IMG/VR virus record: IMGVR_UViG_3300046513_000348 | Location: 124,001 to 188,000 of that record | Source of the DNA: a virus | DNA length: 64,000 nucleotides | Strand: one strand, 5' to 3' | In this document: positions 6,498 through 23,071 of the stretch, one piece after another | How the letters are laid out: the number at the start of each line of letters is the position of its first letter | Numbering within the stretch: position 1 is the stretch's first letter | Made by a program: the position numbers and the translations under genes | The notes under the pieces: generated by a model | Told to the model about the DNA's origin: nothing | Databases searched by the model: none | The model's input: the letters and a program-made list of their open reading frames with translations, nothing else

Positions 6498-7520
6498 ATG
6501 GCTGATACCAATATCCTCCCACCTTCCCATTCGTTCGATGAGACCGGCGTCTTGCCGGAGAACTACATCGAAAACGAAATGCGTTTCCTTGCGGATCGTA
6601 CTTATCGTGCAGTGGCTCCTCGTTTCGGCGCTTTCTTCATTGAAGGCTTCCGCATTCGCGATGGCAACGGCAACGACATCCCGAAAAGCAAGTACCAGTA
6701 CGCACTGTACAACAACACCTTGTCGGCCAAGTGCGGCAAGGACGTGATTGGCGCTATCGTCATCACTGACCCGACCGTGGTATCGCCCATCTACATGGAC
6801 TATCACTGCGTCGGCGGCCCGTGGGGTGCTTCCAACGAGCGCATCATCGAGATGTTCTACGAGCTGATGAAGGATCGTCCGGTTGCCTGGCCGAACATCC
6901 TCGGTAAGCCGGATGCCTACAAGCCCGCTCACCACTTCCAGGATATCGGCGACCTGTACGGTGCTGAATACTTCGTGGAAGCCCTCGAGCGTCTGACCGA
7001 TGCCATCCTGATGGGTGACTCGGCATCGCACGATGAGATCTGGCGTCGTATGGACGAAATGCGTACTGAGCTCAAAGGCAATATCGACGATCTCAGTAAG
7101 GCACTGAACAAACGTATCGACGACACCGATGCAGCCCTGCGCCAACTCGTTGCCGATACTAAGGCCGACCTGACCCAACAGATCGCCAACCTTCGCAGTG
7201 ACATGAACGCTGCGGACAATGCGATCAACCAGCGTATTACCAATGTGCAAAACACGTTGCAAGGTAACATCGATGCAGTGGCGCGTTCCCTGTCGTCGCA
7301 CGTCAACGATTGGGGCAATCCACACCACACCAGCTACGGTCAAGTGGGTACCTACTCCACGACCGACATCGATGCCAAAGACAAGGCAATCAAGGACTCC
7401 CTCACGAACTATGTGAAGAAGGACACCAACGAGAATCTGTCGCTCAGTATCGCAGGCGGACAGCTCTTTGGTTACGTCAATGGCGTATGGCAGATCATCT
7501 GGCCGGCTCAGTGGTCCTAA
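6498..7520 (+). CDS. Tail fibre-like virion protein with coiled-coil shaft
   Basis: A 340-residue protein. The N-terminal part parallels the preceding fibre gene (pattern ..FAPFFEEG versus ..FGAFFIEG, and a following GGPW/GGIW segment). Residues about 180-270 form a heptad-like coiled coil with repeated ALNKRIDDTDAALRQLV-type segments. GNPHHTSYGQVGTYSTTDID echoes the NPHQVT..QVGAYST motif of its neighbour. The C-terminus (YVNGVWQIIWPAQWS) is short and aromatic. It is probably a fibre or fibre-attachment subunit. It directly precedes the cupin and radical SAM genes, which makes it one possible target of that modification island. Confidence 0.7.
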   Translation: MADTNILPPSHSFDETGVLPENYIENEMRFLADRTYRAVAPRFGAFFIEGFRIRDGNGNDIPKSKYQYALYNNTLSAKCGKDVIGAIVITDPTVVSPIYMDYHCVGGPWGASNERIIEMFYELMKDRPVAWPNILGKPDAYKPAHHFQDIGDLYGAEYFVEALERLTDAILMGDSASHDEIWRRMDEMRTELKGNIDDLSKALNKRIDDTDAALRQLVADTKADLTQQIANLRSDMNAADNAINQRITNVQNTLQGNIDAVARSLSSHVNDWGNPHHTSYGQVGTYSTTDIDAKDKAIKDSLTNYVKKDTNENLSLSIAGGQLFGYVNGVWQIIWPAQWS

Positions 7521-7575: not shown

Positions 7576-8106
7576 ATGAAATCTCAGCAGGCAATCAACG
7601 TACTCGCAGCCCTCAACTCGTTTACGCCAGTGCCAGCGGATTTGATGCTCCTCGAGGTATTGTCTTCGCCATACCCTTATCAACAGGGTATGGTTAAAGC
7701 GATTCTCGAGGGCGGTAAACAGATCACCCTCGAGAGCGCTGAAGAAATGTGGCCGTATGTTCGTAACGGCTGCCTCAAGATTGAGGGCATGGAAAAACTG
7801 AGCCAGAAGCTCTGGGATTTCTGTAACCTCGTCCGCACGGAGCGTGGCCGTTACAAGCCCGTCTCGTGCCACATCTTCAATGCGACTCAAGGTGCTCCCA
7901 GTTTTCCGGATCATACCGATCCGGAAGATGTATACCTCTATGTCGTCGGCGGCGAGAAAACTCTCATCGTCGAGGGTAAAGAGGTCGTACTCAAGGCTGG
8001 CGATTCGCTCTGCATTCCTGCGGGTACGACTCATCGTGCCGTGAATCACAAAGCTTCCTGCATGCTCAGCATCGGCTTTGACAAGTTTATTCTGGAGAAG
8101 CTCTGA
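7576..8106 (+). CDS. JmjC/cupin-fold protein, probable Fe(II)/2-oxoglutarate oxygenase
   Basis: A 176-residue protein. The C-terminal half has the cupin pattern: FPDHTDPEDVYLYVVGGEK, then LKAGDSLCIPAGTTHRAVN. The HTD at residues 113-115 and His153 give an HxD...H triad as used to bind Fe(II) in JmjC-type hydroxylases of the YcfD/ribosomal oxygenase kind; ordinary cupins have other ligands. The N-terminal 90 residues are helical and unrecognised. AGGAG precedes the ATG. The stop codon overlaps the start of the radical SAM gene by 1 nt, so the two are translationally coupled. A role in oxidising a protein or peptide is inferred; a plain metal-binding cupin is the alternative. Confidence 0.7.
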   Translation: MKSQQAINVLAALNSFTPVPADLMLLEVLSSPYPYQQGMVKAILEGGKQITLESAEEMWPYVRNGCLKIEGMEKLSQKLWDFCNLVRTERGRYKPVSCHIFNATQGAPSFPDHTDPEDVYLYVVGGEKTLIVEGKEVVLKAGDSLCIPAGTTHRAVNHKASCMLSIGFDKFILEKL

Positions 8107-9173
8107 TGCACAGAACAGTTTATATCAAGACGACGGAAGCCTGCCAGCTGAATTGCAAGCATTGTTTCACTGGCGGCAATGGTCCTGCTCGTACTTTCCT
8201 CGACATGGACAAGACCGAGCAATGGATCCGTCGTTTCAATAATGCGATTACGCCCCGTGACGAAGTTCACTTCGAACTGCATGGCGGCGAACCTTTCCTG
8301 GCTCCCGTTGACATGCTGAAGCGCTTAACCCGCGCTATCCGTGTCTGGGGTCCTGCATTGCACACGGTCGGCGCCACGACTAACCTCGTGTACAAAATGT
8401 CCGACGAGTTGTTCTGGTTCATCAAGAACGATCTCGACAGCATCGCAACCAGCTGGGACAAGGGTATCCGTTTCGAGAATCCTAAGCAGGAAGATCTGTG
8501 GCGGACGAACTTGAAACGTCTGATTGACGCTGGCATCAAAGTCGTTCTGAACGTCAGCGTGTCTCGCGCGGTTGTCGAGATGGATCAGGAGGAGCTCGTT
8601 AAGTTCCTTCGTGATACCGGTTGCTACAAAGTGCAGTTCGACCGCATCACCCAAAACGGCAATGCCAACAATCACCTGGACCTCTTCCCCAGCAACGCAG
8701 AAATCAACCAGTGGTATCTGCGCATGCATGCAGCAACTGAAAAGCTGAATGCTCGGGAATGGTTCTACAACTCGGCACTGGAAGATGTGTATGCCAAGTT
8801 CGAGAAAGGTAACTCCTGCTCGGGTACTTTTTGCCGTGACTGCGAAGAGACGATTCTCACGCTGAACGCAGACGGTACGATCGGCGGTTGTCCTAACTCG
8901 GCACCAGAAGAATATTTCGGCAACATCGATATGTTGATGCACCAGCTCCATACTGCCCCGAAGCGTATCGACCTGATGACGAAGGAGAAGGTCCGCAACG
9001 ACCACTGCTTCACCTGCCCGGTATTCAGTTACTGCGGCAGCGATTGTCACCGACTTGAATGGGAAGGCGACGTGTGTGCTTCTCCACGTCAGCTAATGCT
9101 CAAGCTTGCCGGTTTGCCGTACGAAGAAGTCAAAATCCCCAGTAAAAAGTTCATTCCTATTAAGGCCGTCTAA
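8106..9173 (+). CDS. Radical SAM/SPASM protein 1
   Basis: A 355-residue protein. Cys13, Cys17 and Cys20 (CQLNCKHC) form the CxxxCxxC motif that binds the SAM [4Fe-4S] cluster, and HGGEPF near residue 60 is the usual glycine-rich SAM-binding strand. The last third has a SPASM-like cysteine set: CSGTFCRDC, GGCPNS, then CFTCPVFSYCGSDC and DVC, giving ligands for extra Fe-S clusters. SPASM enzymes typically modify peptides (sactisynthases, anSME, quinohemoprotein and mycofactocin maturases). It lies between the HxD cupin and the protein with CHxS repeats, 2 bp from the latter, so that protein is the most likely substrate. Substrate assignment is inference. Confidence 0.9.
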   Translation: MHRTVYIKTTEACQLNCKHCFTGGNGPARTFLDMDKTEQWIRRFNNAITPRDEVHFELHGGEPFLAPVDMLKRLTRAIRVWGPALHTVGATTNLVYKMSDELFWFIKNDLDSIATSWDKGIRFENPKQEDLWRTNLKRLIDAGIKVVLNVSVSRAVVEMDQEELVKFLRDTGCYKVQFDRITQNGNANNHLDLFPSNAEINQWYLRMHAATEKLNAREWFYNSALEDVYAKFEKGNSCSGTFCRDCEETILTLNADGTIGGCPNSAPEEYFGNIDMLMHQLHTAPKRIDLMTKEKVRNDHCFTCPVFSYCGSDCHRLEWEGDVCASPRQLMLKLAGLPYEEVKIPSKKFIPIKAV

Positions 9174-9175
9174 TC

Positions 9176-9709
9176 ATGGTTGCAATTTACAAAACCGACA
9201 TGGACCCGTCCGCTCAGGCTTACCTGACGAACGGTGTCAACAACATGGGCGTGTACACGAGTGGCAACGCTCCTCCCAATACGAACACTGGCCGCTTGAC
9301 CAGCTACAACCGCAATCCGCCGGAAAGCTACCCGTCGCGATATCTGAGCGGCGCCGTCAAAGCGCCTCGGCTGAAAGAGCTGATGATCGCTCTGGCTTCG
9401 AACTACTATATGCTGGGTCGTGGCAATTACGGCCTGCGTAATACCGATTCGACCACGAATCGAGAATGGTACACCGGTACCGGTAGCGGTATCTTCGCTC
9501 TGTCCGGCGTGAACAACGGTATCGCCGGTGCTGCAGCCGGTGCTCCACTTCCGGCAGTTCCAAGTCCGATCACCCATGCCCGTGCATCGGACATCTACGG
9601 CTACGGCTGGGCGCAACTGCAAAGCTGTATCAGTACCGTGAGCGTTGACCTGACCGTCTGCCACAGTTCTTGCCACACCTCGTGCCACGGCTCCCGTGGT
9701 CGTCGTTAA
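9176..9709 (+). CDS. Candidate modification substrate with C-terminal Cys-His-x-Ser repeats
   Basis: A 177-residue protein. The body is Asn/Gly/Tyr/Ser-rich and looks like a small structural or leader-like domain, with an Ala/Gly/Pro-rich linker near residue 115-130. The C-terminus carries three consecutive tetrapeptides, CHSS (162-165), CHTS (166-169) and CHGS (170-173), then RGRR. Such Cxxx tandem repeats at the C-terminus are typical of peptides matured by radical SAM/SPASM enzymes, and the upstream neighbour is such an enzyme. Alternatives are a metal-binding tail of a virion protein, or a tail-tip protein whose end is cross-linked. No known family is recognised. Confidence 0.75.
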   Translation: MVAIYKTDMDPSAQAYLTNGVNNMGVYTSGNAPPNTNTGRLTSYNRNPPESYPSRYLSGAVKAPRLKELMIALASNYYMLGRGNYGLRNTDSTTNREWYTGTGSGIFALSGVNNGIAGAAAGAPLPAVPSPITHARASDIYGYGWAQLQSCISTVSVDLTVCHSSCHTSCHGSRGRR

Positions 9710-9730
9710 TAAACACTGAAGGAAACCTCC

Positions 9731-11344
9731 ATGAGCGATAACGAAAACTTTGCATCCAGTACCGAACTGTCGAACATCAGCGAGAAGATCGATTCGATCG
9801 ATTCCGGCACGAATACCTTCGACAGCAATATGCGGCCGGTCGAGCTTCCTGGTTTCCAGGCAGCATTCAATGCAGCAGTCGAGGCGGGTTCTCCGCACAG
9901 CCTGTGCCCGGAAGTCTTGGAACCGATCCCGCACGTCGACATCGACATCGCCGCTACCTATCCGCAGCCCGAGCAGGCAATGATCGAGCGGATCCGCGAA
10001 CCGAATCCCGGCTATGTTCCTACCGGCGAATCGCTGGAAGGCAAGTCGGCTGAAGAAGTCGTCGCTTCCTGGACCGTTCAGTCAGAAACCGATGGTGCCA
10101 TGGAAGTCGGCGAAGGCGTGAAAGAAGTTGCCCAGCGCATCCTCGATGAAACCGGCCTGTCGCCGTCGGAACTGATCGCCAATTCGAGCGTCGCGGACAA
10201 CAATCCGCCGGAAGTTCTTCGTGACGAAGAAGGCAAACCCATCAAAGTCACCATCAGTGTGACGGATCTTTCCGAAGTGATCCACATGCCGGTCCCGGCA
10301 GAAGACACGTCGGACATCAGTGACTTCGAACTGAAGGAAGAAGAAGCGGCGGCAGCATTGGCCATTCGCCAGCAGTTCACCGACAACCTGAATATCGAGC
10401 GCGGTATCGATCTGACTGAACCGCACGTCCTCGACGACGCTTTCGATCCGGAAAATCCCGAGCACATGAAAATGCTCGAAGAAGGCTTGGCCAGCGGCGC
10501 CATTGCCGATGCGAACAAGATCATGGAAAAGCCGGAAATGATCAGCCTGGAAAACGTCCGCGAAACCGTGGTGCCGATTCCGACGGATCTGATCCGCGAG
10601 TTCTTCACGAACAAGGGCCTGTACTACCTGATCGACTATCGCGAGTCCAAGCTCAAGGGCGGTGCTTTCCTGACTTACTTGACCAACCTGAATGTTCCGG
10701 CCGATCTGCGCTTCAGCGCGGTTCTCGAGTACGAAGAGTACGCCGAGCTCATGAAGGCTTACATGGATCAGCGTTCGGTGATCAATTGCCCTCTGCTGCA
10801 CGTCATGGCCGCGGAACTGCTGCTGTTCGCAAAGGGCCTGCCGCACGAGCGTTCGCCGTATGTAACACCGGTGCCGAAAGCTTCGTTCCTCATCCGCTTC
10901 ATCGACGAGAACAAAGAACAGATCGGCAAGTGGCTGCACTTCATCGACTCGACCCAGGTTTTCGCCCTGTCGGCCATCAAAGTCCTGAACGGCTATTATA
11001 AACCGAAGGAGTTCTTCGAGAACATCGATGACAAGGAATACGTCGGCAGCAACATCGCCCAGCTGTATCGCATCCCGGAATTCATCGCGTACTACTTCGC
11101 CCTTGAAGGCGCCGAGTACAAGCTGTCGTACTTCACGCAGCAGTACGAAGAGTACATGTTCAAGAACGAACGCCTGGCCAAGTACTTCCGTTCGCCCCAC
11201 AACTTCTCGGCCCTGATGTTCGAGCACATCGCCCAAGGTACGATCAAAGCCAGTGACATCGGTTACGGCCTGTTCGCCATCGGCGTGTTCGCTCCGGAAG
11301 CAGGTATCGCCGAGTTCGACGCATCGGCCAAAGCGCCGGCATAA
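9731..11344 (+). CDS. Unknown acidic 537-residue protein
   Basis: I do not recognise a family. The first ~250 residues are acidic and probably disordered (many Asp/Glu/Ser/Pro). The rest is helical and aromatic, and no membrane segment is evident. Codon use is strongly biased (CTG, GAA, C-ending codons), as in highly expressed late genes. AAGGAAACC precedes the ATG. It is 9 bp from the next gene, so the two probably act together. Confidence 0.8.
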   Translation: MSDNENFASSTELSNISEKIDSIDSGTNTFDSNMRPVELPGFQAAFNAAVEAGSPHSLCPEVLEPIPHVDIDIAATYPQPEQAMIERIREPNPGYVPTGESLEGKSAEEVVASWTVQSETDGAMEVGEGVKEVAQRILDETGLSPSELIANSSVADNNPPEVLRDEEGKPIKVTISVTDLSEVIHMPVPAEDTSDISDFELKEEEAAAALAIRQQFTDNLNIERGIDLTEPHVLDDAFDPENPEHMKMLEEGLASGAIADANKIMEKPEMISLENVRETVVPIPTDLIREFFTNKGLYYLIDYRESKLKGGAFLTYLTNLNVPADLRFSAVLEYEEYAELMKAYMDQRSVINCPLLHVMAAELLLFAKGLPHERSPYVTPVPKASFLIRFIDENKEQIGKWLHFIDSTQVFALSAIKVLNGYYKPKEFFENIDDKEYVGSNIAQLYRIPEFIAYYFALEGAEYKLSYFTQQYEEYMFKNERLAKYFRSPHNFSALMFEHIAQGTIKASDIGYGLFAIGVFAPEAGIAEFDASAKAPA

Positions 11345-11353
11345 GGAAACGTC

Positions 11354-12418
11354 ATGCTCAATTTGTTCGATCGTGTCTATATGCGGCACGATAACGTCTT
11401 GATCCGTGGTCAAGGCCAGCGCAAGCTGATCATCACGCCCAAGACGAAAGAAACCGCTTACGTCGAAGGAAAGACCTCGCAGATCGAAATCGGTCTGATC
11501 GGTGTCTACGAGAACCTGGCTGAATGCGAAGCGTTCTACGGCGATCGCGATACCATGTGGGCTGTTCTTCGTCAAACCAAGTCGAAGGTCATCATTATCG
11601 CCGACAAGTGGACGTTTGCGGAACTGATCATTCAGTACTGGAAGTCCATCTTCAAGTCGCCGACGGTGGAAAGTCTCTTCGCGTTGTACGAAGTGATGAT
11701 CAACAACGAAAATCTGCACACCATTCGTCCGATGGAAAAGCGCGTCAATCAGTACTCGGCCGATTCTCCGGATGAAGCCATCGTCAAGCTGACGCCTGCC
11801 GCTTTCAAGGAAGTGTTCGACAAGGTGGAAGGGTCGCCTGTCCTGGAAACCCTGGAGCTGAAAGAACTCCCGTTCGAGTACGCTTTGATGGCCTATCTGG
11901 TTGACGAAACGAACCCGACTGCACGGAAGGTCCTCTTTCCGAAGGTCGACAAGATCGTCAAGGACAACATCGTGGCGCAGCTCATTGGCAGTCGTGACGA
12001 GATGCTCTACGAGTCCCACAACTACTACCTGATCGACGGTAAGGAAAACGAAGTCCCGATCACCGATCCGATCGCGTACATGAAGAACCATCCAGCCCTG
12101 TCGTGGGTCCTGGACGATGTCTTCCAGTACGGGCAGGAAGAAGAGATCCTTGCCAAGTACGGCCTGGAAAAGATCAAGCTGTTCATTCGTGTGGTGGGTC
12201 GTATTCTGTTCGAAAACGATCTGATGTTGGTCGCCATCGACTTCATCCGGAACAAGCAGTACGCTGAACTGATCGCGCACGACATCGGCGATCATCGCGG
12301 CAACTACTTCGGCACCCATGCTTATCAGCGCAAGATCAACAGCCTGTTCGTGTCCTACATGTACCAGCTCAAGCGGCTGAACCTGGTGGACCAACTGGCC
12401 CAGTACCAACTGCGTTAA
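11354..12418 (+). CDS. Unknown 354-residue protein
   Basis: A soluble-looking, mainly helical protein with no recognised motif. It is cotranscribed with the acidic 537-residue protein and ends at a terminator 10 bp downstream. That terminator splits the island into two transcription units: fibre-to-here, and the radical SAM/oxygenase run that follows. Confidence 0.8.
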   Translation: MLNLFDRVYMRHDNVLIRGQGQRKLIITPKTKETAYVEGKTSQIEIGLIGVYENLAECEAFYGDRDTMWAVLRQTKSKVIIIADKWTFAELIIQYWKSIFKSPTVESLFALYEVMINNENLHTIRPMEKRVNQYSADSPDEAIVKLTPAAFKEVFDKVEGSPVLETLELKELPFEYALMAYLVDETNPTARKVLFPKVDKIVKDNIVAQLIGSRDEMLYESHNYYLIDGKENEVPITDPIAYMKNHPALSWVLDDVFQYGQEEEILAKYGLEKIKLFIRVVGRILFENDLMLVAIDFIRNKQYAELIAHDIGDHRGNYFGTHAYQRKINSLFVSYMYQLKRLNLVDQLAQYQLR

Positions 12419-12427
12419 AGGCGTAGT

Positions 12428-12454
12428 CCCCAGTCACCCTCACGGGTGACTGGG
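12428..12454. terminator. Hairpin terminator
   Basis: CCCAGTCACCC, loop TCAC, GGGTGACTGGG, followed by TCTTATG. The stem is a perfect 11 bp, between two plus-strand genes. Confidence 0.75.
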
Positions 12455-12525
12455 TCTTATGCTGTCGATTTAAAATCTATTGCTCGCCTTACTTTTTTGA
12501 ACCGAATATCCCTTTAGGAAACTCT

Positions 12526-13620
12526 ATGAATCAGCCATTCAATTCTGACCTGTCTTCTGCTGCAACGATTGCAAATGCAACCGGCTACCATCTGAGCCTG
12601 AGTCTCGAATGGCTGTCGGGATGTCAGTTTAGCTGCAAGGGCTGCCATGTGAACAAGGAGAACGGGGTTCCTTATACTCCTACTCAAGTGAACCATCTGG
12701 CCCGTTGGCTGGAGGATATGAGGTTCAAGGGCGGTTATACGCCAACGATCGTGTTCTTAGCTCCGACAGATTTCCTGGTTGCTGACAACATCGTGAAAAT
12801 CTTAACGAACATTCACGCATATGGGATTCTGGCTCAGTTCAAGCGACTGTCGCTCCAGACGACGTTCCTCAACATGGATCAGGCCGAGACCATCGCCAAG
12901 ATTCTTAAGCTGCGTTATTCGCACATGGAGCTGGAACTGAACTTCATCATCGAGCCAGAGCAGGTGGAGAATGAGAAGTATCTGGACCGAATCAAGGAGA
13001 ACCGCGCCAAGATGCTGGAACTCCTGGACTGGAAGAAACACGTAGCGTCATTCGCAATCATGAACGTCTACGAGTACGACCGGGTTAAGAAGAACAACGT
13101 CAAAAAGATCCTGGCCGATTATCAGGCACTCCACCAGCGTATCAAAGAGAAGTTCGATTCCACAATCGACTTCAATTTCTCCATGACCCGTAACTCCTGG
13201 TGGTCGGGCGAAGACATCAAGGAAGCGGTCCAAAGTGTCAGCCGTATCTTCGATGCTGGCGTAAGCCACGAGATCAACCAGACCATTCGATTCTCCTTCG
13301 GCAAGCTGGAAGACTCGGCTATCGAAAAACACTACAACTGGCATCAGGGAAATCTTTACGTATCGCCCATGATCTATGAGCGGATTGCTTCCTTCGATGA
13401 CCGACTGAAGGTGCCTTACGGCGGTGTGAAAGCAACCGAGGACTTCGAGCTGAAGCTCATGATCGATCAGTATCATTGGTCCGAGAAAGACGTGCCGTGC
13501 AAGGGCTGTAACTATCAGGCTTCCTGCGTGGATCGAAACGTCCTGACCTTCATGAAAATGAACGACATCAAAGAGTGCATCATCGCAAAGAAAGCACTCG
13601 ACGCCATTAACGTAATCTAA
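12526..13620 (+). CDS. Radical SAM protein 2
   Basis: A 364-residue protein. Cys33, Cys37 and Cys40 (CQFSCKGC) give the SAM-cluster motif after an N-terminal extension. The C-terminus has VPCKGCNYQASCVDR, with a later Cys in KECIIAKK, a reduced SPASM/twitch-like cysteine set. The expected central barrel is present, but the Gly-rich strand is replaced by TIVFLAPTDFL. TAGGAAACTC precedes the ATG. It starts the second part of the island, 12 bp before another radical SAM gene. The two differ clearly in sequence, so they are not recent duplicates. Confidence 0.85.
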   Translation: MNQPFNSDLSSAATIANATGYHLSLSLEWLSGCQFSCKGCHVNKENGVPYTPTQVNHLARWLEDMRFKGGYTPTIVFLAPTDFLVADNIVKILTNIHAYGILAQFKRLSLQTTFLNMDQAETIAKILKLRYSHMELELNFIIEPEQVENEKYLDRIKENRAKMLELLDWKKHVASFAIMNVYEYDRVKKNNVKKILADYQALHQRIKEKFDSTIDFNFSMTRNSWWSGEDIKEAVQSVSRIFDAGVSHEINQTIRFSFGKLEDSAIEKHYNWHQGNLYVSPMIYERIASFDDRLKVPYGGVKATEDFELKLMIDQYHWSEKDVPCKGCNYQASCVDRNVLTFMKMNDIKECIIAKKALDAINVI

Positions 13621-13632
13621 ACCGAGAATATC

Positions 13633-14664
13633 ATGAACCAAGAAGGCTTCCTGCAAAACGTCCTGGCAAGCAAGCTGCCTGAATCCTCAGAGATCGAACA
13701 TCATCTGTTCGAGTTCTGCAACCTGAACTGCTCCTTCTGCGGTCAGGATCACAAATCCACCGTGGGCATGGATTCGATCATCGATAAGGCATATCAGACC
13801 GTCGACTTCATCATGCGTTCGCCGTTAAAAATGCACACCATCAACGTGATGGGCGGCGAGATCTTCAACGACGGCATTGGCGTCGATGTCTTCCTCCAGT
13901 ACTTCGAGTTCTACGAGATCATCCGTAAAGCTTGTGCGGACCTGAAGGTTGACTTCCAGATCAACTGGGTGACGAACCTGGTGTTCAAGGAGAACCGCGA
14001 GATGGTCGATCTCCTGATGGAGAAGACTTCGATGCATTCCCGCATCTCGACGTCTTACGACTTCGCTGGTCGTGGGTTGAACCTGAACAAGAAGATGTTG
14101 TTCGAGTACAACCTGCTGTATTACAAGAAGTACATCGGTGTGGTTGGTTTCGTTCTGACCGCTCCTGCCATCCGTAAGCTGATCGCTAACAAGGATCGCT
14201 TCTTCCGCGACATTCTCTACGGCAACTATCCGTTGTACTTCGACTGGTATGTGCCGGAGAAGACTGCTGAGAAGATGATGCCGTCTGAGCAGGAGACACT
14301 CGATGGACTCCTCTTCATCGCCGACAACTATCCGGAAGTCGAACCAGTCAAGAGCCTCTTGCAGAACAAAGAAAACAAGATGACTTGCTACTCGCTGAAC
14401 AAGACCACCATCTTGCCAGACGGGAAGGAAGTCAAGTGCCGTTACATGGAATACGACAAGTCGGATTTCCAGAACGACATCGACTACAGTTCGAACGCCA
14501 ACATCATCACGGCGCATATCGAACGTCACGACTGCATGTCCTGTGAATGGTACGAGAAGTGCCAGTTCCGCTGCTTCGTAAACGCAGACTGGGGCAAACT
14601 CGAACGCCTCCCGGAATGCCTGTTCAAAACCTTTTTCGAAAAGACGAAACATCTCCATGGATAA
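13633..14664 (+). CDS. Radical SAM/SPASM protein 3
   Basis: A 343-residue protein. Cys29, Cys33 and Cys36 (CNLNCSFC) form the SAM-cluster motif and NVMGGEIF is the Gly-rich strand. A C-terminal auxiliary-cluster region reads CYSLNKTTILPDGKEVKCRY, then HDCMSCEWYEKCQFRC and PEC, a good SPASM pattern. The start follows CGAGAATATC. The end overlaps the next, membrane-protein gene by 8 nt. Confidence 0.88.
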   Translation: MNQEGFLQNVLASKLPESSEIEHHLFEFCNLNCSFCGQDHKSTVGMDSIIDKAYQTVDFIMRSPLKMHTINVMGGEIFNDGIGVDVFLQYFEFYEIIRKACADLKVDFQINWVTNLVFKENREMVDLLMEKTSMHSRISTSYDFAGRGLNLNKKMLFEYNLLYYKKYIGVVGFVLTAPAIRKLIANKDRFFRDILYGNYPLYFDWYVPEKTAEKMMPSEQETLDGLLFIADNYPEVEPVKSLLQNKENKMTCYSLNKTTILPDGKEVKCRYMEYDKSDFQNDIDYSSNANIITAHIERHDCMSCEWYEKCQFRCFVNADWGKLERLPECLFKTFFEKTKHLHG

Positions 14665-15022
14665 GAATCAAATGCTGTCTTTCCTGGCCTACCTGGTTTT
14701 GTATTTCCTTTACAAAGCCATCGTGGGCTTTATCAAAGGCATCTGGAAGTCGGCGAATTGGACGAGATATATTCCTCGGTCCGGCCGGAAGCTCTTCAGT
14801 CGAGCACTTCCGATCCTGCTGCTGTTCGTGGTGGTCAATGTGGTCTTTCATCTGGCCGCCAATCCGAAAGACATGTTCGCTTACTATTCGATGGTTTGCT
14901 TCATGCTCTCTTTCGCCTGGCTTTGGACGATCGATGAATACGATCTCTCGATCAAAGACATCTTCAGCATGGTGACCTTCGGCATCGGCTGCATTCTCCT
15001 CCATCTTCATCCTCTGTTCTAA
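14657..15022 (+). CDS. Small membrane protein, three or four predicted segments
   Basis: A 121-residue protein. Hydrophobic segments are at about 8-26, 50-66, 78-92 and 103-118, separated by a basic loop (KSANWTRYIPRSGRK). No family is recognised. Its 8-nt overlap with radical SAM gene 3 suggests coupled expression. It might anchor or export an island product, but nothing in the sequence proves that. Confidence 0.75.
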   Translation: MDKNQMLSFLAYLVLYFLYKAIVGFIKGIWKSANWTRYIPRSGRKLFSRALPILLLFVVVNVVFHLAANPKDMFAYYSMVCFMLSFAWLWTIDEYDLSIKDIFSMVTFGIGCILLHLHPLF

Positions 15023-15029
15023 ATACAAA

Positions 15030-15521
15030 ATGGTCAAGCTCACTATCATCGTCGCACGCGCCTTGAATGGCGTCATCGGTAACGGCAACAAACTCCCGTG
15101 GAACATCCCGGAAGACATGAAACACTTCAGGACCTACACCAAGGGCAAGCCGGTCATCATGGGCCGTCTGACTCACGAGTCGATCGGCATGGTCCTGCCT
15201 GGCCGCATGAACATCATCGTGTCGCGCAATCCCGACTATCGCGTCGAAGGCGCGGTCGTGGTCAATTCCCTGCCAGCTGCACTGGAACTCGTGCACGAAC
15301 TGCCGGAAGCCGTTCTGATCGGCGGCATGCAATTGTACGAATATGCGCTCAATGAAGATCTGGTCGACAAGTGCGTAGTCACCCAACTCGAAGATGCCTA
15401 CTCGGGCGATGCGTTCTTCCCGGCTCTCGACGAAACCAAGTGGGAGCCTGTCATGAGTCAGCAGAGCTTCCCGAGCTGCGGCTTCACCATCATCGATTAT
15501 CGGCGGCGTAAAGCGTCATGA
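15030..15521 (+). CDS. folA: Dihydrofolate reductase
   Basis: A 163-residue protein of usual DHFR length. It begins MVKLTIIVARALNGVIGNGNKLPW, with the IGxxxxLPW signature, an acidic residue in IPEDMKHF at the folate site, GKPVIMGRLTHESIG, and LIGGMQLYEYAL for NADPH binding. It reduces dihydrofolate to tetrahydrofolate, supporting phage thymidylate synthesis. The stop codon overlaps the start of the next tiny gene (ATGA). It seems an ordinary metabolic gene embedded in the island. Confidence 0.93.
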   Translation: MVKLTIIVARALNGVIGNGNKLPWNIPEDMKHFRTYTKGKPVIMGRLTHESIGMVLPGRMNIIVSRNPDYRVEGAVVVNSLPAALELVHELPEAVLIGGMQLYEYALNEDLVDKCVVTQLEDAYSGDAFFPALDETKWEPVMSQQSFPSCGFTIIDYRRRKAS

Positions 15522-15658
15522 AAAATTGCGATCCGAACGTGTTGTTCGTTCTGGTGCCGTGGGCCTTCATCATTTTGGTCGTAGGCCTTTACGGTTGCTT
15601 CATTTTCCATGCAAGGAAAGAAAGAAAACGCTATGAGCGCTCCTGCTTTAATCATTAA
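15518..15658 (+). CDS. 46-residue single-pass membrane protein
   Basis: The ATG overlaps the folA stop (ATGA) and the frame closes at 15656-15658 inside the next gene. It encodes MKNCDPNV, one hydrophobic helix (VLFVLVPWAFIILVVGLYG), then a basic tail (HARKERKRYERS), so it is inside-positive. Overlaps on both sides fit a coupled small phage gene. The function is unknown. Confidence 0.6.
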   Translation: MKNCDPNVLFVLVPWAFIILVVGLYGCFIFHARKERKRYERSCFNH

Positions 15659-16718
15659 GCCAACAGAAGCGTGTAACTTCAAGTGCACCTTCTGTTCGAG
15701 CACCGACATCCAGGGCGATTCCCCGAACCTGGATCTCGAGTACATCCGACAATACCTGCAGGCTTTCCCCAGCTGCCCGACGATCATCATTAATGGCGGC
15801 GATCCGCTCATGATGAAGCCGGAGTACTACTGGAAGATCATCCACATGCTGGACGAGATGGGTCTCGCAACCACCCTGTCGTTCACCACCAATCTCTGGG
15901 CTTTCTACAAGAAGCCGGAAATGTGGGAGAACCTGTTCCTGAGTCCGCGTGTAGGTGTCGCTACTTCGTTCCAGTACGGCAATGCTCGCCTCAAGGGCGA
16001 CCTGACCCCGTACACGGAAGAAGAGTTCTGGGCTGTTTCCGATCTGTTCTTGAAGCGCATCGGCTATCGTCCCGAGTTCATCGCCGTCATCACCAAGGAA
16101 AACGAAGACACGGTTATCAAGACCGTGGAACTGGCCAAGAAGATGGGCGTGGTCTGCAAAGTAAACTACGCCATGGCTTCTGGTCCAACGACAGAGTTCA
16201 AGGGCATCAAGATCGGTAATGCCGACAGCACCTACGTGTTGGCCGACATCTATCAGAAGTACATCGAGATCTACGAAGCGGGCCTGGCCGAGTGGGAACA
16301 CAACACCAAGGTCATGATGACGCGGCTGATCGGCGGCTTCTCGATCTGCCCGCAAGCACGTAACTGTGACCAGCATATCCGTGCCTTGCAACCCGGCGGC
16401 AAGTACTACAGCTGCGGTGCATTTGGTGACGACGGCCTGTATCCAATTGACTTCCAAACCGAAGTGATTAAGAACAAAGGGAAGTTCGTCGAGATGCCTC
16501 TCCAATGGCAACCGGAACTGCAAAGCCTGAAGACGGCCTGTTTCGAATGTCCGATGTTCGAAATCTGCAACGGCTGCCGTAAGACGACTCATGACCTGAA
16601 GCGTCTGGGCCTGGTGGAAACCCATTGCGCCAAGATGAAAACCCTGGCTCCAAAGATCATCGATATCAACGGCCTGACCGGTAAGGTCGAACCCACTCCG
16701 TATGTGAAGGAGAACTAA
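15633..16718 (+). CDS. Radical SAM/SPASM protein 4
   Basis: A 361-residue protein from the ATG at 15633, chosen for the AAGGAAAG upstream; an in-frame ATG at 15609 would add eight residues. Cys14, Cys18 and Cys21 (CNFKCTFC) bind the SAM cluster and IIINGGDPLM is the Gly-rich strand. The C-terminal cysteines (CPQARNC, YYSCGAFGDDG, then CFECPMFEICNGCRK and HC) form a SPASM pattern. It is followed without a gap by an unknown gene. Confidence 0.9.
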   Translation: MSAPALIIKPTEACNFKCTFCSSTDIQGDSPNLDLEYIRQYLQAFPSCPTIIINGGDPLMMKPEYYWKIIHMLDEMGLATTLSFTTNLWAFYKKPEMWENLFLSPRVGVATSFQYGNARLKGDLTPYTEEEFWAVSDLFLKRIGYRPEFIAVITKENEDTVIKTVELAKKMGVVCKVNYAMASGPTTEFKGIKIGNADSTYVLADIYQKYIEIYEAGLAEWEHNTKVMMTRLIGGFSICPQARNCDQHIRALQPGGKYYSCGAFGDDGLYPIDFQTEVIKNKGKFVEMPLQWQPELQSLKTACFECPMFEICNGCRKTTHDLKRLGLVETHCAKMKTLAPKIIDINGLTGKVEPTPYVKEN

Positions 16719-17426
16719 ATGCATGATCCAGTCGTGCAGTTCTTCAAGGACAACATAGCGAGGCTTGATCCGCTGTGTTGTAACTTCTCTTTCGTCAACG
16801 GAAGGGCGGAAGAAATAATTTACAACATCGATGGCAAATATCCTGAGATTTATCGCGCCATGTTTGACGCGGTAATGGAGGACCATTTCCCGGATATCGA
16901 AAGGGAACGAATCGAAGCGGTTAGTTTCCAGCAAGCAGATGGCGGACTGTATCAGGAAGACAAGTTCCTGGTCTCTGTCGACAATGCCAAGATGGACTGC
17001 TTCCTCTATCCCGAACTGAACTGCTTTAATCCGTTCCTGTTTTACGGCATCAATTCGGGCGTCGATACGAAGAATCGCTCCTGTAAGTTTTATGACCTGG
17101 ATACTACGGCATACACTTGCATGGAATGGCCGTCGTTCATCCAGCTGTTCGACAAGTACGGTGCCGGTGTCGGCATTAAGCCCGATATCGTAGGGATCTA
17201 CTTCCTGTCTCACGAATACCAAAAGGTAATCGATTGGGTAGGACTGCCTGATCCGGTTCCTGCTGAACTCAAGGATGTGATCCTGCCCAAGGCTAGCATC
17301 CACAACTTCGGCCTGACGTTCAACATCAAGACGAAAGAAATGGTCAAGCTGAGTTACTTCTTCTACAACGACCAATATCGTGAAGACGTCATGCCGTATC
17401 TGAAGGAAAGAAATGAAACCGTTTAA
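16719..17426 (+). CDS. Unknown 235-residue protein of the modification island
   Basis: No recognised family. A GGAGAACTAA site just before the ATG overlaps the previous stop. A CC pair lies near residue 20 and further cysteines are scattered. The fold appears globular alpha/beta. It overlaps the following 2OG-oxygenase gene by 14 nt. It could be a partner, carrier or recognition subunit of the enzymes on either side; this is inferred from position only. Confidence 0.7.
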   Translation: MHDPVVQFFKDNIARLDPLCCNFSFVNGRAEEIIYNIDGKYPEIYRAMFDAVMEDHFPDIERERIEAVSFQQADGGLYQEDKFLVSVDNAKMDCFLYPELNCFNPFLFYGINSGVDTKNRSCKFYDLDTTAYTCMEWPSFIQLFDKYGAGVGIKPDIVGIYFLSHEYQKVIDWVGLPDPVPAELKDVILPKASIHNFGLTFNIKTKEMVKLSYFFYNDQYREDVMPYLKERNETV

Positions 17427-18018
17427 TTCGGCCGAAATGATTGGTGACTATCTTGGCAAGGGTGGTTACCATTTCAATGCGGAAGCAGTACTGAAGGATT
17501 TCGATTACAAGTGCTTCCTTCCGCGCAACCGTGCTTACGGCGAGCATGAAACACTGAACTCGGCCATCAAGCTGAATTCGTACAGCCTGTACCAAATCAA
17601 CCAAATCCGCGATCTGACGCACCGCATCAGTACGGAGTACTTGTCGGACTTCCGCCACCACATCTTCTATCACGACTTCTACGATATCGTTTACCCGACG
17701 TCGAAGAACTGGCATTACGATATCGAAGACATCCTGGACTGGAAGGGCTACAACGCTGTCCTGAACTGCTACTTCGAAGACACGTCGCCTGAAAACGACG
17801 ACATCGCGGTAACGTTCACGCCGTATGACGATGCCATCGTCGACACGCAGAAGCAGCGGGATTCCGACCTGATCTACGTGAAGAAGAACGACATCGTCCT
17901 GATCAACCAGACCCGTCGTTTCCTGCATCGCGTGACCGATGATCACCAGCGCCGTCCTATCCTGATGTTCGCCATCTCGTTTATGGACTTCCCCGCCGAC
18001 CTACCGTTACCAGGCTAA
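17413..18018 (+). CDS. Fe(II)/2-oxoglutarate oxygenase-like protein A
   Basis: A 201-residue protein. His101-Tyr-Asp103 and the distal His172 (FLHRV) with Arg181 (QRRPILMFA) give the HxD...H...R layout of prolyl-4-hydroxylase-type dioxygenases. The N-terminus has YLGKGGYHFNA, a motif shared with the two paralogues at 19518 and 20114. It is probably soluble, and hydroxylation of a peptide or protein side chain is the family-level expectation. GGAAAG precedes the ATG. It sits between an unknown gene and radical SAM gene 5. Confidence 0.8.
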   Translation: MKPFNSAEMIGDYLGKGGYHFNAEAVLKDFDYKCFLPRNRAYGEHETLNSAIKLNSYSLYQINQIRDLTHRISTEYLSDFRHHIFYHDFYDIVYPTSKNWHYDIEDILDWKGYNAVLNCYFEDTSPENDDIAVTFTPYDDAIVDTQKQRDSDLIYVKKNDIVLINQTRRFLHRVTDDHQRRPILMFAISFMDFPADLPLPG

Positions 18019-18022
18019 AATC

Positions 18023-18958
18023 ATGAAAGATAGCAAAGTCATCAACCTGTCGGTTAACCCGACTTACTTCTGTAATTTCCGTTGTGGCTTTTGCTATCTG
18101 ACGGAGGAACAACTTTCCGATCAGAAACGACTGGGCTTGGACGTCCTGAAACAACGCATCGAAGAAATCCGCGAGGCCGGTTACGAGATCGGCCATGTGG
18201 ACCTGTACGGCGGCGAGGTGCTCTTGCTGCCTTACGAATATCTGTTGGCTGCCAAGGTACTCATGCGAGTCGAAGGTGCGCAGGACATCGAGATCATCAC
18301 CAACCTGTCGACTTATCGTCAAGAGATCCTCGATGACCAACGCTTCGGTATCTCGGTAAGCTACGACTTCGAGCATCGACAGCAGGCCGATCATGTTTGG
18401 AAGAACATGATGAAGATGACCCGTCCCTTCACGGTTCTGACTCTGGGTATTCCGGAACTCCTGAAGAAGGATCCCATCGAATGCATCGAACAGCTGAACC
18501 TGCTGTCGAACTGCCATCACTGGGAGATCAAACCTTACAGCACGAATCAGGCGAACCAACTGCCTTTCAAGTATTCGGACTACGAAGCCTTCATCCAGAA
18601 GGTGATCGATTACCCGAATAAGAACTTCGAGTTCCTCAACGAGGTGGCTCTGAAGATGGCCCACTACGGTGACGCCAATCCTTATTCGGACGACCACGTC
18701 TACATTACGCCGAGTGGCAAATTCGGTGTTCTGGAATTCGACAAGAACGACAACGAGTATTTCCTGGAGCTCGACTCCTTCGGCAACTACCTGGACTGGA
18801 CCTTGCTTGAGAAATCGCGCGTTCTGTCCAATGCATTCTGCGGCTCCTGCAACTACAACGGTCGCTGTATCTCGGAGCACCTGCGTGAGGTCAAGTCCCT
18901 CGACGACAGCTGTAACGGGTTCCACAATCTGATACAGTGGTACGAGAAGAAACTATGA
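18023..18958 (+). CDS. Radical SAM protein 5
   Basis: A 311-residue protein. Cys17, Cys21 and Cys24 (CNFRCGFC) form the SAM-cluster motif and DLYGGEVLLL the Gly-rich strand. The C-terminus has FCGSCNYNGRCISEHL...SCNGF, a short auxiliary cysteine set. The final codons overlap the next oxygenase by 4 nt (ATGA). Confidence 0.88.
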   Translation: MKDSKVINLSVNPTYFCNFRCGFCYLTEEQLSDQKRLGLDVLKQRIEEIREAGYEIGHVDLYGGEVLLLPYEYLLAAKVLMRVEGAQDIEIITNLSTYRQEILDDQRFGISVSYDFEHRQQADHVWKNMMKMTRPFTVLTLGIPELLKKDPIECIEQLNLLSNCHHWEIKPYSTNQANQLPFKYSDYEAFIQKVIDYPNKNFEFLNEVALKMAHYGDANPYSDDHVYITPSGKFGVLEFDKNDNEYFLELDSFGNYLDWTLLEKSRVLSNAFCGSCNYNGRCISEHLREVKSLDDSCNGFHNLIQWYEKKL

Positions 18959-19521
18959 CTCAACTTTCTGTTGACGAACCCTGGCATACGCCAGTCGGTA
19001 AATGGAACTACGCCCAGCGAATCGGCCATCTTCAGCTGCTGGATGAGGTAATGCAGAATCCCGACATCATGAAGGATGTGAAGGTCGGGTCTCTGCGTAT
19101 CTCGGATCGCCGGGAACAGTTCCCCAACTTTTACAACTTCATCGATACCGAACTGACCGCAGCATTCAGGCAGTATCTGTTCGACTGTTACAAACACACT
19201 CCGACGGAAGTAACATGGTCAGCATGGGTTCATGTCTGCCTGCATGGCCAAGGTCTTGTGCCTCATTACCACATGGGCGATGAGCATCTGACCTCGATTG
19301 TCTATCTGACGGAGTCGAAAGCGAATTTGGTTCTTCGGGATCCTCGCGCCAACATGGTTCGCAATTGGCCCCAAGAAATCCTGAAGGATCATTACAAAGA
19401 TTACGAAATTCATCCAAGAGTCGGTGACTTCGTTATGTTCCCAACCTTTATCGACCATTACGTAATGGCGACTGAACCGGACTTCCGTGTATCGGTTGCC
19501 ATTGACTGGTGTTTTAAATGA
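18955..19521 (+). CDS. Putative 2OG-Fe(II) oxygenase B (different subfamily)
   Basis: A 188-residue protein from the ATG overlapping the previous stop. An in-frame ATG 18 nt upstream is possible but less likely. The pattern VPHYHMGDEHLTSIVYL, LRDPRAN, GDFVMFPTFIDHYVMATE and FRVSVAIDW follows the phage-type putative 2OG-Fe(II) oxygenase layout (metal His/His or His/Asp, a dP strand, an FP..xxH strand and a final Arg). Candidate ligands are His104/His106, His168 and Arg178. It lacks the KGFxxFNA N-terminal motif of the other three. Confidence 0.72.
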   Translation: MTQLSVDEPWHTPVGKWNYAQRIGHLQLLDEVMQNPDIMKDVKVGSLRISDRREQFPNFYNFIDTELTAAFRQYLFDCYKHTPTEVTWSAWVHVCLHGQGLVPHYHMGDEHLTSIVYLTESKANLVLRDPRANMVRNWPQEILKDHYKDYEIHPRVGDFVMFPTFIDHYVMATEPDFRVSVAIDWCFK

Positions 19522-20117
19522 CAACTCTTAACTCAAGCGCATTCCTCGCTGACTTCCTTACCAAAGGTTTCCACTGCTTCAATGCGGCGGACTTTTTACA
19601 ACTGTGCCCGATCGAGAAGTTCCAGACCGTCACCGTCAAGCACGCCGACAACTGCTTTCATGCGGAAGGCCATGAATTTCATAACGAGATCATGACGTCG
19701 GCAATCAAGGGCCTGATGTCGATCCTGACTGGCAGTGTCTTGTACGAGTTCGATGCTTCGCTGGCATTCGACTTCTTCGCCGATAAGCCGAACGATCATG
19801 TCGTGAAGTTCCACAGCGATGCACAGTACGCGATGCCTGGACAGAATGCCACGATTAATTGCTTCTTCGACGACACTGATGAGACCACGGGCGGCCGTTT
19901 CGATATGTCGCCTTACCGTGAAGACATCTTCGGCAAGAGCGACGATGTTCCTGGAATGGCCTCGGTCTATCCGAAGATGTACGACATCATCATCTTCAAT
20001 CAGAATCGGAATTTCCTGCATAAGGTGACATCGGCAAATTCGCGGCGCCGGATGATCTCCTTCGCCTGCACTTTCCATGACATCAACCCACTTCATCCGA
20101 ACTGGGTGCCAGCATGA
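19518..20117 (+). CDS. Fe(II)/2-oxoglutarate oxygenase-like protein C
   Basis: A 199-residue paralogue of proteins A and D. FLTKGFHCFNA lies at residues 13-23, His99-Ser-Asp101 is the metal motif, then TGGRFDM, and FLHKV (His168) and RRRMISFA (Arg177) complete the triad and the co-substrate anchor. Its ends overlap both neighbours by 4 nt, giving tight coupling. Confidence 0.82.
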   Translation: MTTLNSSAFLADFLTKGFHCFNAADFLQLCPIEKFQTVTVKHADNCFHAEGHEFHNEIMTSAIKGLMSILTGSVLYEFDASLAFDFFADKPNDHVVKFHSDAQYAMPGQNATINCFFDDTDETTGGRFDMSPYREDIFGKSDDVPGMASVYPKMYDIIIFNQNRNFLHKVTSANSRRRMISFACTFHDINPLHPNWVPA

Positions 20118-20689
20118 TCGACGTCGGCGAGTTTATTACTGAATATCTGACCAAAGGCTTCTTCCGCTTCAATGCGCACGAGGTCCTTAGCAGCTTCGAT
20201 TTGCGGGCTTTTGGGAAGATCAAGAAAACGGACACAACTTTCTACACGAAGCACCCGAAAGAGCGTTACAAGGGCTATACGGACCTGCAAGAGGCACTCC
20301 TGAAGCAACTTTCGCGCGACCTGTCGGAAATGTACTTCCACGAACTCAACCATGAGCTTCGTTTCAATGACATGTGGTCGTCGGCCAATCCGAATACCTA
20401 CGAATGGCACAACGATACCCTCCGCTGCTGGCCTGGTTTCAACAGTAGCGTGAACTGCTACTTCGACAGCACGGATCTCGAGACCGGCGGTTCGCTGCAA
20501 TTGCATCCGAACATCTATGCTGAGATCGAGGACGACTCGCGGGACATCAGCGAGGTCTATCCGCAGCAGTTCGATGTGATCGTGATTAACCAGAACTCCA
20601 ACTGGATGCATCGCGTTCTTCACACCGAACGTCCTCGTCGCATGGTGGCATTCGCAGGAGCATTCTTCGATTTCAATCCGGTGATCTAA
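20114..20689 (+). CDS. Fe(II)/2-oxoglutarate oxygenase-like protein D
   Basis: A 191-residue protein, closest to protein C. YLTKGFFRFNA is at residues 11-21, His99-Asn-Asp101 binds metal, TGGSLQL follows, His166 is in WMHRV and Arg175 in RRMVAFA. The same spacing of ligands in C and D (99, 101, about 167, about 176) shows tandem duplication. It is followed immediately by an unknown 152-residue gene. Confidence 0.82.
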   Translation: MIDVGEFITEYLTKGFFRFNAHEVLSSFDLRAFGKIKKTDTTFYTKHPKERYKGYTDLQEALLKQLSRDLSEMYFHELNHELRFNDMWSSANPNTYEWHNDTLRCWPGFNSSVNCYFDSTDLETGGSLQLHPNIYAEIEDDSRDISEVYPQQFDVIVINQNSNWMHRVLHTERPRRMVAFAGAFFDFNPVI

Positions 20690-21148
20690 ATGAAACAGCC
20701 TGAACAAAAAGAATGGAAGATGTGGCAGCAGGTTTACAATAGCCTGGTAACTGACCACAGCGACGATCGCAAATACCATAAGCTCGAGTATTCATCCGAG
20801 AAAGTGGAGAATGCGTTCTTCTACCTGAACGAGAAAGCAGACTACGGCATTTACCCTGCCAAGAGCCGCATCATCGCAATCATCTACGCCACCATGCTGG
20901 AAAAGGTGTATGGCGAGGACTTCTACGAGGTTCTCAATGATCCCGACCTGCTGTACGGCCAGGATGATTTCTTCGTGCCATATCTGGAAGACATGGACAC
21001 GTACGATGCGATCATCGAACGCCTCAAGACTATGCCGGATTGGTTGGAGATGGGCTGGGCACCCAAGACTGTCGAGTACTTCTATTTGGAGTGCACGCAG
21101 AAGGGCGTCGAGTCGATTAACGGCAACAACATGACGGACGTCAAATAA
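20690..21148 (+). CDS. Unknown 152-residue protein closing the modification island
   Basis: No recognised family. It is acidic and aromatic, mostly helical (YDAIIERLKTMPDWLEMGW). The ATG directly follows the stop of oxygenase D. It is the last gene before a strong terminator, so it probably belongs to the same transcript. Confidence 0.7.
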   Translation: MKQPEQKEWKMWQQVYNSLVTDHSDDRKYHKLEYSSEKVENAFFYLNEKADYGIYPAKSRIIAIIYATMLEKVYGEDFYEVLNDPDLLYGQDDFFVPYLEDMDTYDAIIERLKTMPDWLEMGWAPKTVEYFYLECTQKGVESINGNNMTDVK

Positions 21149-21158
21149 CGAAAGTATA

Positions 21159-21190
21159 CATACATGGATGGCGCAAGCCATCCATGTATG
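21159..21190. terminator. Hairpin terminator ending the island
   Basis: A perfect 14-bp stem with a GCAA (GNRA) loop: CATACATGGATGGC / GCCATCCATGTATG. It lies 10 bp after the last island gene. Confidence 0.8.
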
Positions 21191-21230
21191 GTGTATGTCT
21201 GCAAAGATCATGTGTTACGGAGGACTAAAA

Positions 21231-22214: not shown

Positions 22215-22225
22215 GGAGTTTCACC

Positions 22226-23033: not shown

Positions 23034-23071
23034 TACACATACTCCTAGCCTCACGGCTAGGAGTATGTGTA
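23034..23071. terminator. Bidirectional hairpin terminator
   Basis: A 17-bp perfect stem with loop TCAC between the convergent endolysin gene and the 95-residue gene. Confidence 0.82.

Follow-up and report, generated by a model that had tools for sequence, protein, structure and literature searches.

What would a bacteriophage make with five radical S-adenosylmethionine (SAM) proteins, a cupin and four 2-oxoglutarate (2OG) oxygenase-like proteins encoded side by side? This question is raised by an island at positions 7576-21148 of a 64,000-nucleotide stretch (hereafter the window), which corresponds to bases 124001-188000 of the 218,660-base virus record IMGVR_UViG_3300046513_000348. The original prediction had placed these ten proteins on one strand, many of them overlapping by 1-14 nucleotides (nt), directly behind two tail-fibre genes, and all of this was confirmed. 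It had overlooked open reading frame (ORF) 9176-9709, three partner proteins (9731-11344, 11354-12418 and 20690-21148), a dihydrofolate reductase (DHFR) and a membrane protein. ORF 9176-9709 encodes a protein of 177 residues, called PREC here, which is very probably the substrate of the island enzymes. Our preferred reading, which we hold to be probable, is that the island encodes a cassette dedicated to post-translational maturation, which remodels the tail at the C-terminus of a protein associated with the fibre. It would work like the systems that make ribosomally synthesized and post-translationally modified peptides (RiPPs), acting on a protein tail.

A putative substrate and its C-terminal tail

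The PREC gene (+ strand, as are all features of the island) starts two bases 3' of the rSAM_A gene and precedes the remaining island genes. The protein ends with LTVCHSSCHTSCHGSRGRR-stop, and its extreme C-terminus is the core tail CHSSCHTSCHGSRGRR (9659-9706), which is conserved in relatives. The family consensus for the last 16 residues, CHxSCHxSCHGSRGRR, is near-invariant. When PREC was compared with its homologues in the Burkholderia phages SURPRISE13 and FLC6, the body was found to be about 38% identical and the last 19 residues to be identical. The counterparts in FLC6 and RSF1 have roughly 186 residues. The tail regions differed in 9-10 of 57 nucleotides, and since all of these differences were silent, conservation of the tail acts at the protein level.

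A search of IMG/VR with a DNA pattern degenerate for CHxxCHG[S]RG[R] led to 92 stretches. Nearly all of the matches in the retrieved stretches were in frame and formed the very C-terminus of a protein, with a stop codon directly after them. The residues that the pattern left unspecified (the first Cys-His, one Ser and the last Arg, compared in 40 diverse members) and the stop were equally constant. The same pattern run on bacterial genomes gave mostly random mid-frame matches, and thus served as a natural negative control.

The linkage between tail and enzymes was also seen from the enzyme side. A search with the alignment of rSAM_D alone indicated that 350 IMG/VR contigs encode this protein; the best 80 of them were fetched, the tail motif playing no part in the selection (the 80 rSAM_D loci). 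A nearby protein ending in CHxxCHxxC(H/N)xxRxRR was found in 66 of the 80 and a variant of it in 4 more, while in at least one of the remainder the substrate lies beyond the fetched flank. Among the 66 matched tails, C-H, C-H, C and R.RR were present in 66/66 and the third H in 65/66. In a phage collection of 50,697 records, rSAM_A, rSAM_D and the substrate occurred in exactly the same 7 records. Two IMG/VR contigs (222,888 and 223,932 bases) are presumably the Ralstonia phages RSF1 and RSL2. No match was obtained when rSAM_A was looked up directly in IMG/VR as a single protein, or by tblastn with the 23-residue tail peptide, a search subject to the limits of short queries.

Among the seven phage records, more divergent tails with the same plan were found in the lineages of DT01, Phosso and Atu_ph07 (CHTSCHTSCHSARGRR, CHTSCHASCHSSRSRR, CHSSCHASCHNSRSRR), in which the tail ends with CHSARGRR (DT01), CHSSRSRR (Phosso) or CHNSRSRR (Atu_ph07). 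The Atu_ph07 substrate is gp170, with DFCHSSCHASCHNSRSRR as its C-terminal peptide. Other tails also depart from the consensus, one having CHSSCHYSCHSSCHGDGPGNGGGV in place of the RGRR end (L203:7611-8183), one an extra upstream Cys-His pair (L169:6497-7180) and one only two units (L156:6672-7184). The phages of loci L023, L024, L031, L038 and L207 encode two tandem short substrates (124-138 residues), several of them together with an array of up to 5 rSAM_B-type genes.

The substrate body spans about 120-320 residues across the family. Searches of Pfam, NCBIfam and PADLOC yielded no family for PREC, which corresponds to one PHROG of unknown function (phrog_35144). The structural model of the substrate had a mean predicted local distance difference test (pLDDT) score of 86, exceeding 90 over most of the body, and the tail was of low confidence, the block means at the end being 68 and 54. 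When the PDB was searched for similar folds with this model and with that of the partner U537, no match fell under E 0.1. Against the viral structure library, the substrate model matched proteins that are apparently of its own family, Atu_ph07 gp170 among them, and otherwise only three large proteins (504-660 residues) of Myoviridae sp. ctijX18 (A0A8S5USJ8, A0A8S5USJ7 and A0A8S5USV2).

The enzymes and the conserved gene set

Each of the five radical SAM proteins contains CxxxCxxC exactly once and matches Pfam Radical_SAM (PF04055; E 4e-13 to 4e-4). Only rSAM_D and rSAM_E passed the gathering score; rSAM_A scored 28.2 against 29.5, and rSAM_B and rSAM_C were also under it. The three cluster cysteines were 100% conserved in all five families, and at least 4 C-terminal SPASM/twitch cysteines were kept at 98-100% (alignments of 33-83 sequences). 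Because these two sets of cysteines are conserved across the families, the five proteins are, as judged from their sequences, real radical SAM proteins. The motif CxxC(x5)C...C is invariant in rSAM_A, rSAM_C and rSAM_D, and four C-terminal cysteines are present in rSAM_B and rSAM_E. rSAM_A (8106-9173; PF04055 E 2.6e-6; 11 conserved Cys in 83 sequences) was the only one above the cut-off of the NCBIfam SPASM model TIGR04085 (29.8 against 27). rSAM_C (13633-14664; E 4e-4) is SPASM-like, while rSAM_B (12526-13620; E 1.5e-4) and rSAM_E (18023-18958; E 7e-11) are twitch-like, each with 7 Cys 100% conserved (35 and 33 sequences). The SPASM protein rSAM_D (15633-16718; E 4e-13) is the most conserved enzyme, with 50-78% identity across phages and bacteria.

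The enzymes resemble the SPASM peptide maturases DynA, DarE, PapB, YhhB and GrrM in their radical SAM plus SPASM architecture, and these gave the best NCBIfam superfamily matches; they are nevertheless not members of those families, since they scored 20-47 bits against cut-offs of 300-650. We also considered a viperin-type (pVip) defence role, for which there were only partial superfamily matches of 18-39 bits, below the NCBIfam cut-off of 180, and this candidate was rejected.

The cupin (7576-8106; PF07883, E 9e-14) has a probable Fe(II)-type metal site, with H99, H113, D115 and H153 invariant in 61 sequences. The original prediction had labelled it as an HxD cupin and four further proteins as 2OG-oxygenase-like; these labels held except that OG2 has HxH. 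The HxD...H triad and the 2OG-binding Arg are present in OG1 (17413-18018; HYD...H...R), OG3 (19518-20117; HSD...H...R; PF13640 E 0.004, below cut-off) and OG4 (20114-20689; PF13640 E 1e-4, below cut-off), H99, D101, H166 and R175 of the latter being invariant in 15 sequences. OG1 had no Pfam match, yet its profile matched those of OG3 and OG4 with hhalign probabilities of 98.8-99.0%. OG2 (18955-19521) is above the cut-off of PF13759, with H104, H106, H168 and R178 invariant in 18 sequences; because HxH replaces HxD, its predicted metal set is uncertain.

Three partner proteins are part of the conserved set: U537 (9731-11344), whose shared domain is the C-terminal stretch of about 230 residues (phrog_20767) and whose AlphaFold2 model was folded (pLDDT 90); U354 (11354-12418; phrog_36207); and U152 (20690-21148; phrog_20737), which is also present in bacterial loci. 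The original prediction had named the lack of a fixed gene set in other phages as evidence against itself; such a set was found across hundreds of virus contigs. Its genes usually follow the order cupin, rSAM_A, substrate, U537, U354, rSAM_C, (2OG), rSAM_D, rSAM_E, (rSAM_B, 1-3), U152 and 2OG. Within the 80 rSAM_D loci we counted rSAM_C in 74, rSAM_A in 73, an OG2-type 2OG protein in 71, rSAM_E and U354 (the latter by profile) in 66 each, U537 in 64, the cupin in 54 and U152 in 46; these counts are probably lower bounds, because contig ends cut many loci. Some gene contents were also counted in 96 loci gathered by the tail motif (motif loci), in 81 of which U537 was found.

Three genes of the island are occasional and do not belong to the core: U235 (16719-17426; no Pfam match; 6/80 rSAM_D loci), a small membrane-protein-like ORF (14657-15022; weak UPF0060 match; 1/96 motif loci) and the DHFR (15030-15521; PF00186, E 7e-47), a lineage-specific passenger or accessory found elsewhere only in the Burkholderia/Ralstonia group. 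This DHFR lies away from the usual nucleotide-gene setting, and the Burkholderia relatives have two copies. We set it aside as a tailoring reductase because it is canonical and restricted to one phage group. The genes of the island overlap by 1 nt (cupin/rSAM_A), 8 nt (14657-14664), 14 nt (17413-17426) and 4 nt each at 18955, 19518 and 20114. Promoter-like sites were no more frequent than in shuffles (8 against 12.2 expected). Immediately past the island are a gene for a Kelch-repeat protein (21168-22214) and a peptidoglycan-hydrolase-like ORF (22199-23023). Strong hairpins were noted at 21159-21190 (-; 14 pairs) and 23034-23071 (+; 17 pairs); the latter, just 3' of ORF 22199-23023, may serve to terminate transcription.

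Fibre neighbours in phages and predatory bacteria

The two genes before the island match virion structural, tail and tail-fibre PHROGs, which agrees with the claim that the island lies behind tail-fibre genes. The first, fib628 (4602-6488), matches phrog_13857 (tail protein) and phrog_2163 (virion structural) and has the same position in FLC6, SURPRISE13 and DT01. The second, fib340 (6498-7520; phrog_2163, E 1e-69), is present in 31/80 rSAM_D loci, and a protein of this type is encoded by the directly upstream gene in 26/65 loci. Ten large upstream ORFs from the other loci were scanned, and 10/10 had the same tail-fibre-type C-terminal domain (phrog_22593 / phrog_19602). For Atu_ph07, a phage with 131 virion proteins, those identified by mass spectrometry are reported to be encoded mostly in gene clusters 31-76, 170-215 and 284-329 (PMC6102473). 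Gp170 is the first gene of cluster 170-215, and the gene numbers of the publication correspond to those of the database entry, both giving gp215 as the major head protein. This suggests that gp170 is in the virion.

The cassette had been described as phage-borne; it is indeed carried by hundreds of virus contigs, but it is not confined to phages, since chromosomes of predatory bacteria carry it too. Real tail matches in bacterial records included metagenome-assembled genomes of Bacteriovoracaceae and Halobacteriovoraceae, and rSAM_D was found in 13 of the 129 Bacteriovoracales genomes surveyed. One cassette lies on a 4.15-Mb contig near S2/EF-Ts/pyrH/frr/uppS-like genes (named by eye from their translations), and others adjoin the gene for ribosomal protein S20 or for a cbb3-type oxidase. 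In the rSAM_D tree, all 91 phage sequences formed one clade (support 0.92) separate from the bacterial ones, so the bacterial cassette does not represent recent prophage carriage. The bacterial tails keep the frame and vary in the middle (CHSSCHSSCHGSRGRR, CHSACHDNCHSSRGRR, CHGNFPPPCHGSRGRR, CHTNVPTPPPCHASRGRR, CHSNHCSHSNHGSRGRR, and CHSSHSSHSSHSSRGRR at the end of the substrate of locus L255). Two bacterial cassettes contain a B12-binding-type radical SAM protein (L230:13568-15280; L233:572-2311), which may perform an extra C-methylation step.

In all bacterial loci with enough flank (10/10), the cassette adjoins a gene for a protein with an S74 domain, related to two copies that Pfam confirms (Peptidase_S74, PF13884). 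A type IV pilin-like N-terminus and the motif SDxxxK are both present in eight of the ten. Such proteins are pilin/tail-fibre chimeras, resembling minor type IV pilins but closing with an S74 chaperone domain of the phage-fibre kind (L230:9628-10920, L232:9655-10692, L247:13576-14706 and others). Beside them is encoded a partner of about 195 residues, G2like, found in 15/129 genomes; 11 of the 13 genomes with rSAM_D have it too (hypergeometric P 4e-11, uncorrected for kinship). The setting recalls the MAT fibres of Bdellovibrio, surface proteins of predatory bacteria that resemble phage tail fibres and have S74 chaperones; the accessible text reports no radical SAM maturation of these fibres (PMC10769870). 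Here, unlike there, the S74 domain sits on a minor-pilin-like protein.

Three genomes with G2like and without rSAM_D have, adjoining G2like, a different radical SAM group and a small Cys-rich tail protein, which starts with MACSG/MSCSG and ends with CICNxDCxCNxVCxCHNDCGCHY or similar (L257:6806-7315, L258:12365-12928 and L260:9386-9838). The same kind of protein was found within radical SAM clusters of five IMG/VR contigs (phage loci L261-L265); across the bacterial and phage loci, endings of the type CICNSDCxCNxVCxCHNDCGCNY or similar were noted. In 4 of those five contigs, the Cys-rich tail runs straight into an S74-like domain; the 3 that were tested all pass PF13884. S74 domains self-cleave at the serine of SDxxxK (PMC10769870), and this serine comes right after ...CGCNY, where the free-standing versions have their stop codon. 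Because the predicted cut thus falls at the end of the free version, S74 processing of this fibre-like protein is predicted to leave the Cys-rich tail as its mature C-terminus. Comparing the profiles of the CHxS and Cys-rich substrates gave no homology (probability 1.5%), so the Cys-rich type is an analogue and not a relative. That two different tail-making systems appear to alternate at one fibre locus is a telling analogy.

A modified fibre tip and the alternatives to it

We propose that the substrate body would fold and dock, leaving a flexible tail made of three CHx[S/N/A] units and R[G/S/A]RR. This tail would be remodelled by 4-7 radical SAM enzymes, 1-3 2OG oxygenases and one cupin, and the partners U537, U354 or U152 may present it to them. 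The radical SAM/SPASM enzymes would act on Cys, His and Ser within the CHxS units, either rearranging these residues or crosslinking them (thioether or C-C crosslinks), and the 2OG enzymes, perhaps also the cupin, would hydroxylate side chains. The finished protein would stay whole and form or decorate the phage tail-fibre or tail tip; in Bacteriovoracales it would be displayed beside the S74-chaperone pilus-like fibre. In both cases the modified tail may help to contact or cross the Gram-negative envelope. The suggestion of the original prediction that the phage makes a multi-step modified protein or peptide, perhaps on its own fibre, is well supported, with an identifiable putative substrate and fibre-gene neighbours in phages and bacteria. 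We regard display of the modified protein on the fibre as likely.

The tail as the modified part, the chemistry, the fibre display and the entry role are inferred. Several points weigh against this proposal. Gene neighbourhood can reflect late-gene transcription and not function. The PDB search revealed no known fold for the substrate body, which also lacks homology to known fibre proteins. Each of the three Atu_ph07 clusters is exactly 46 genes long; their boundaries may therefore be arbitrary, and the virion placement of gp170 is suggested, not proven. Lastly, the bacterial linkage statistics are uncorrected for phylogeny.

It is unlikely, though worth weighing, that the island is a phage-borne RiPP system in which the modified tail is cut from a leader-like body and freed as a bioactive peptide (an antibiotic, a siderophore-like chelator or a signal). 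The enzyme types, and a C-terminal core on a variable body, do resemble those of long-leader RiPPs, and rSAM_A and rSAM_D weakly match the peptide maturases DynA, PapB, DarE and HxsC. Proteusins such as polytheonamide are long-leader RiPPs in which several radical SAM enzymes and a 2OG-type hydroxylase act on one chain; the present cassette shares with them a long body, a putative C-terminal core and multiple radical SAM and 2OG-type enzymes, but it has no recognised leader protease or exporter, its body is without a known fold, and it is fibre-linked. The Hxs system (HxsABCD) is similar in its C-terminal His-x-Ser repeats, which the L255 end recalls, and its several radical SAM maturases; extra cysteines, the RGRR end, the cupin and the 2OG enzymes set the present cassette apart. 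Membership of Hxs was rejected, as HxsA (TIGR03979) had no match in the window and scored 16 against 121.65 bits with the L255 protein, while HxsC and HxsB reached 31.7 against 267.9 and 21.5 against 370. Release of a peptide is also at odds with the lack of any recognised protease, ABC exporter or immunity gene in the window or its relatives (Pfam, conserved gene content), with the absence of a conserved cleavage motif before the tail, with the well-folded body in the model and with fibre neighbours in both phages and bacteria. For the same reasons, the idea of a secreted product, which the original prediction had also raised, is not supported.

Less probable still is that the tail protein is an accessory, either a Cys/His metal-binding carrier or a docking protein, and that the enzymes modify the adjacent tail fibre. 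CHxSCHxSCH is a plausible set of metal ligands, and a fibre gene is directly upstream; against this, the invariance of the tail down to its terminal Arg-Arg-COOH is greater than a metal carrier needs, and the S74 fibre chaperone of the sister system follows the Cys-rich tail within one polypeptide chain. That the enzymes are auxiliary metabolic genes (Fe-S, cofactor or nucleotide metabolism) and the small protein a bystander is hardly credible: the 12 radical SAM genes of one T4-like virus from the sea were interpreted in terms of Fe-S metabolism (PMC5332604), and a DHFR does lie within the island, but the tail protein accompanies these enzymes almost without exception in unrelated phages and in bacteria, which largely refutes this explanation, the enzymes are SPASM-type, and the DHFR is limited to one phage group.

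The same enzymes are carried by FLC6 (PMC8066314) and S13 (PMC11898562), and 332-Vera has eight radical SAM genes in its structural cluster (PMC12390700). The accessible parts of these reports and of the TARA virus report (PMC5332604) list enzymes only, without mention of any substrate, fixed cassette or counterpart in bacteria. In the libraries and literature searched, with subscription literature and preprint servers outside the scope, we found no described system of this kind and no paper in which a substrate was linked to the enzymes or to the tail motif.

If the maturation reading is true, this would be, to our knowledge, the first case in which radical SAM chemistry makes parts of a virion, and the 12-14 kilobases that some phages spend on such enzymes would be explained. 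The exact substrate and residues are now defined for mass spectrometry in the cultured phages FLC6, FLC8, S13, RSF1, RSL2, DT01, Atu_ph07 and Phosso, and the loci offer a large enzyme set with probably new peptide chemistry. Tentatively, and with slightly less than even confidence, we suggest that phages and predatory bacteria may use the same multi-enzyme radical chemistry to shape the C-terminal tip of fibre or pilus proteins, in a CHxS-RGRR and a sister Cys-rich S74-fused type, yielding a crosslinked or metal-loaded point that would bind or breach the Gram-negative envelope. If so, the fibres of phages would be linked with the apparatus that predatory bacteria carry on their surface. The occurrence of the same tail in FLC6/RSF1-like jumbo phages, Atu_ph07-like giant phages, smaller aquatic phages and Bacteriovoracales suggests a general solution to a shared problem.

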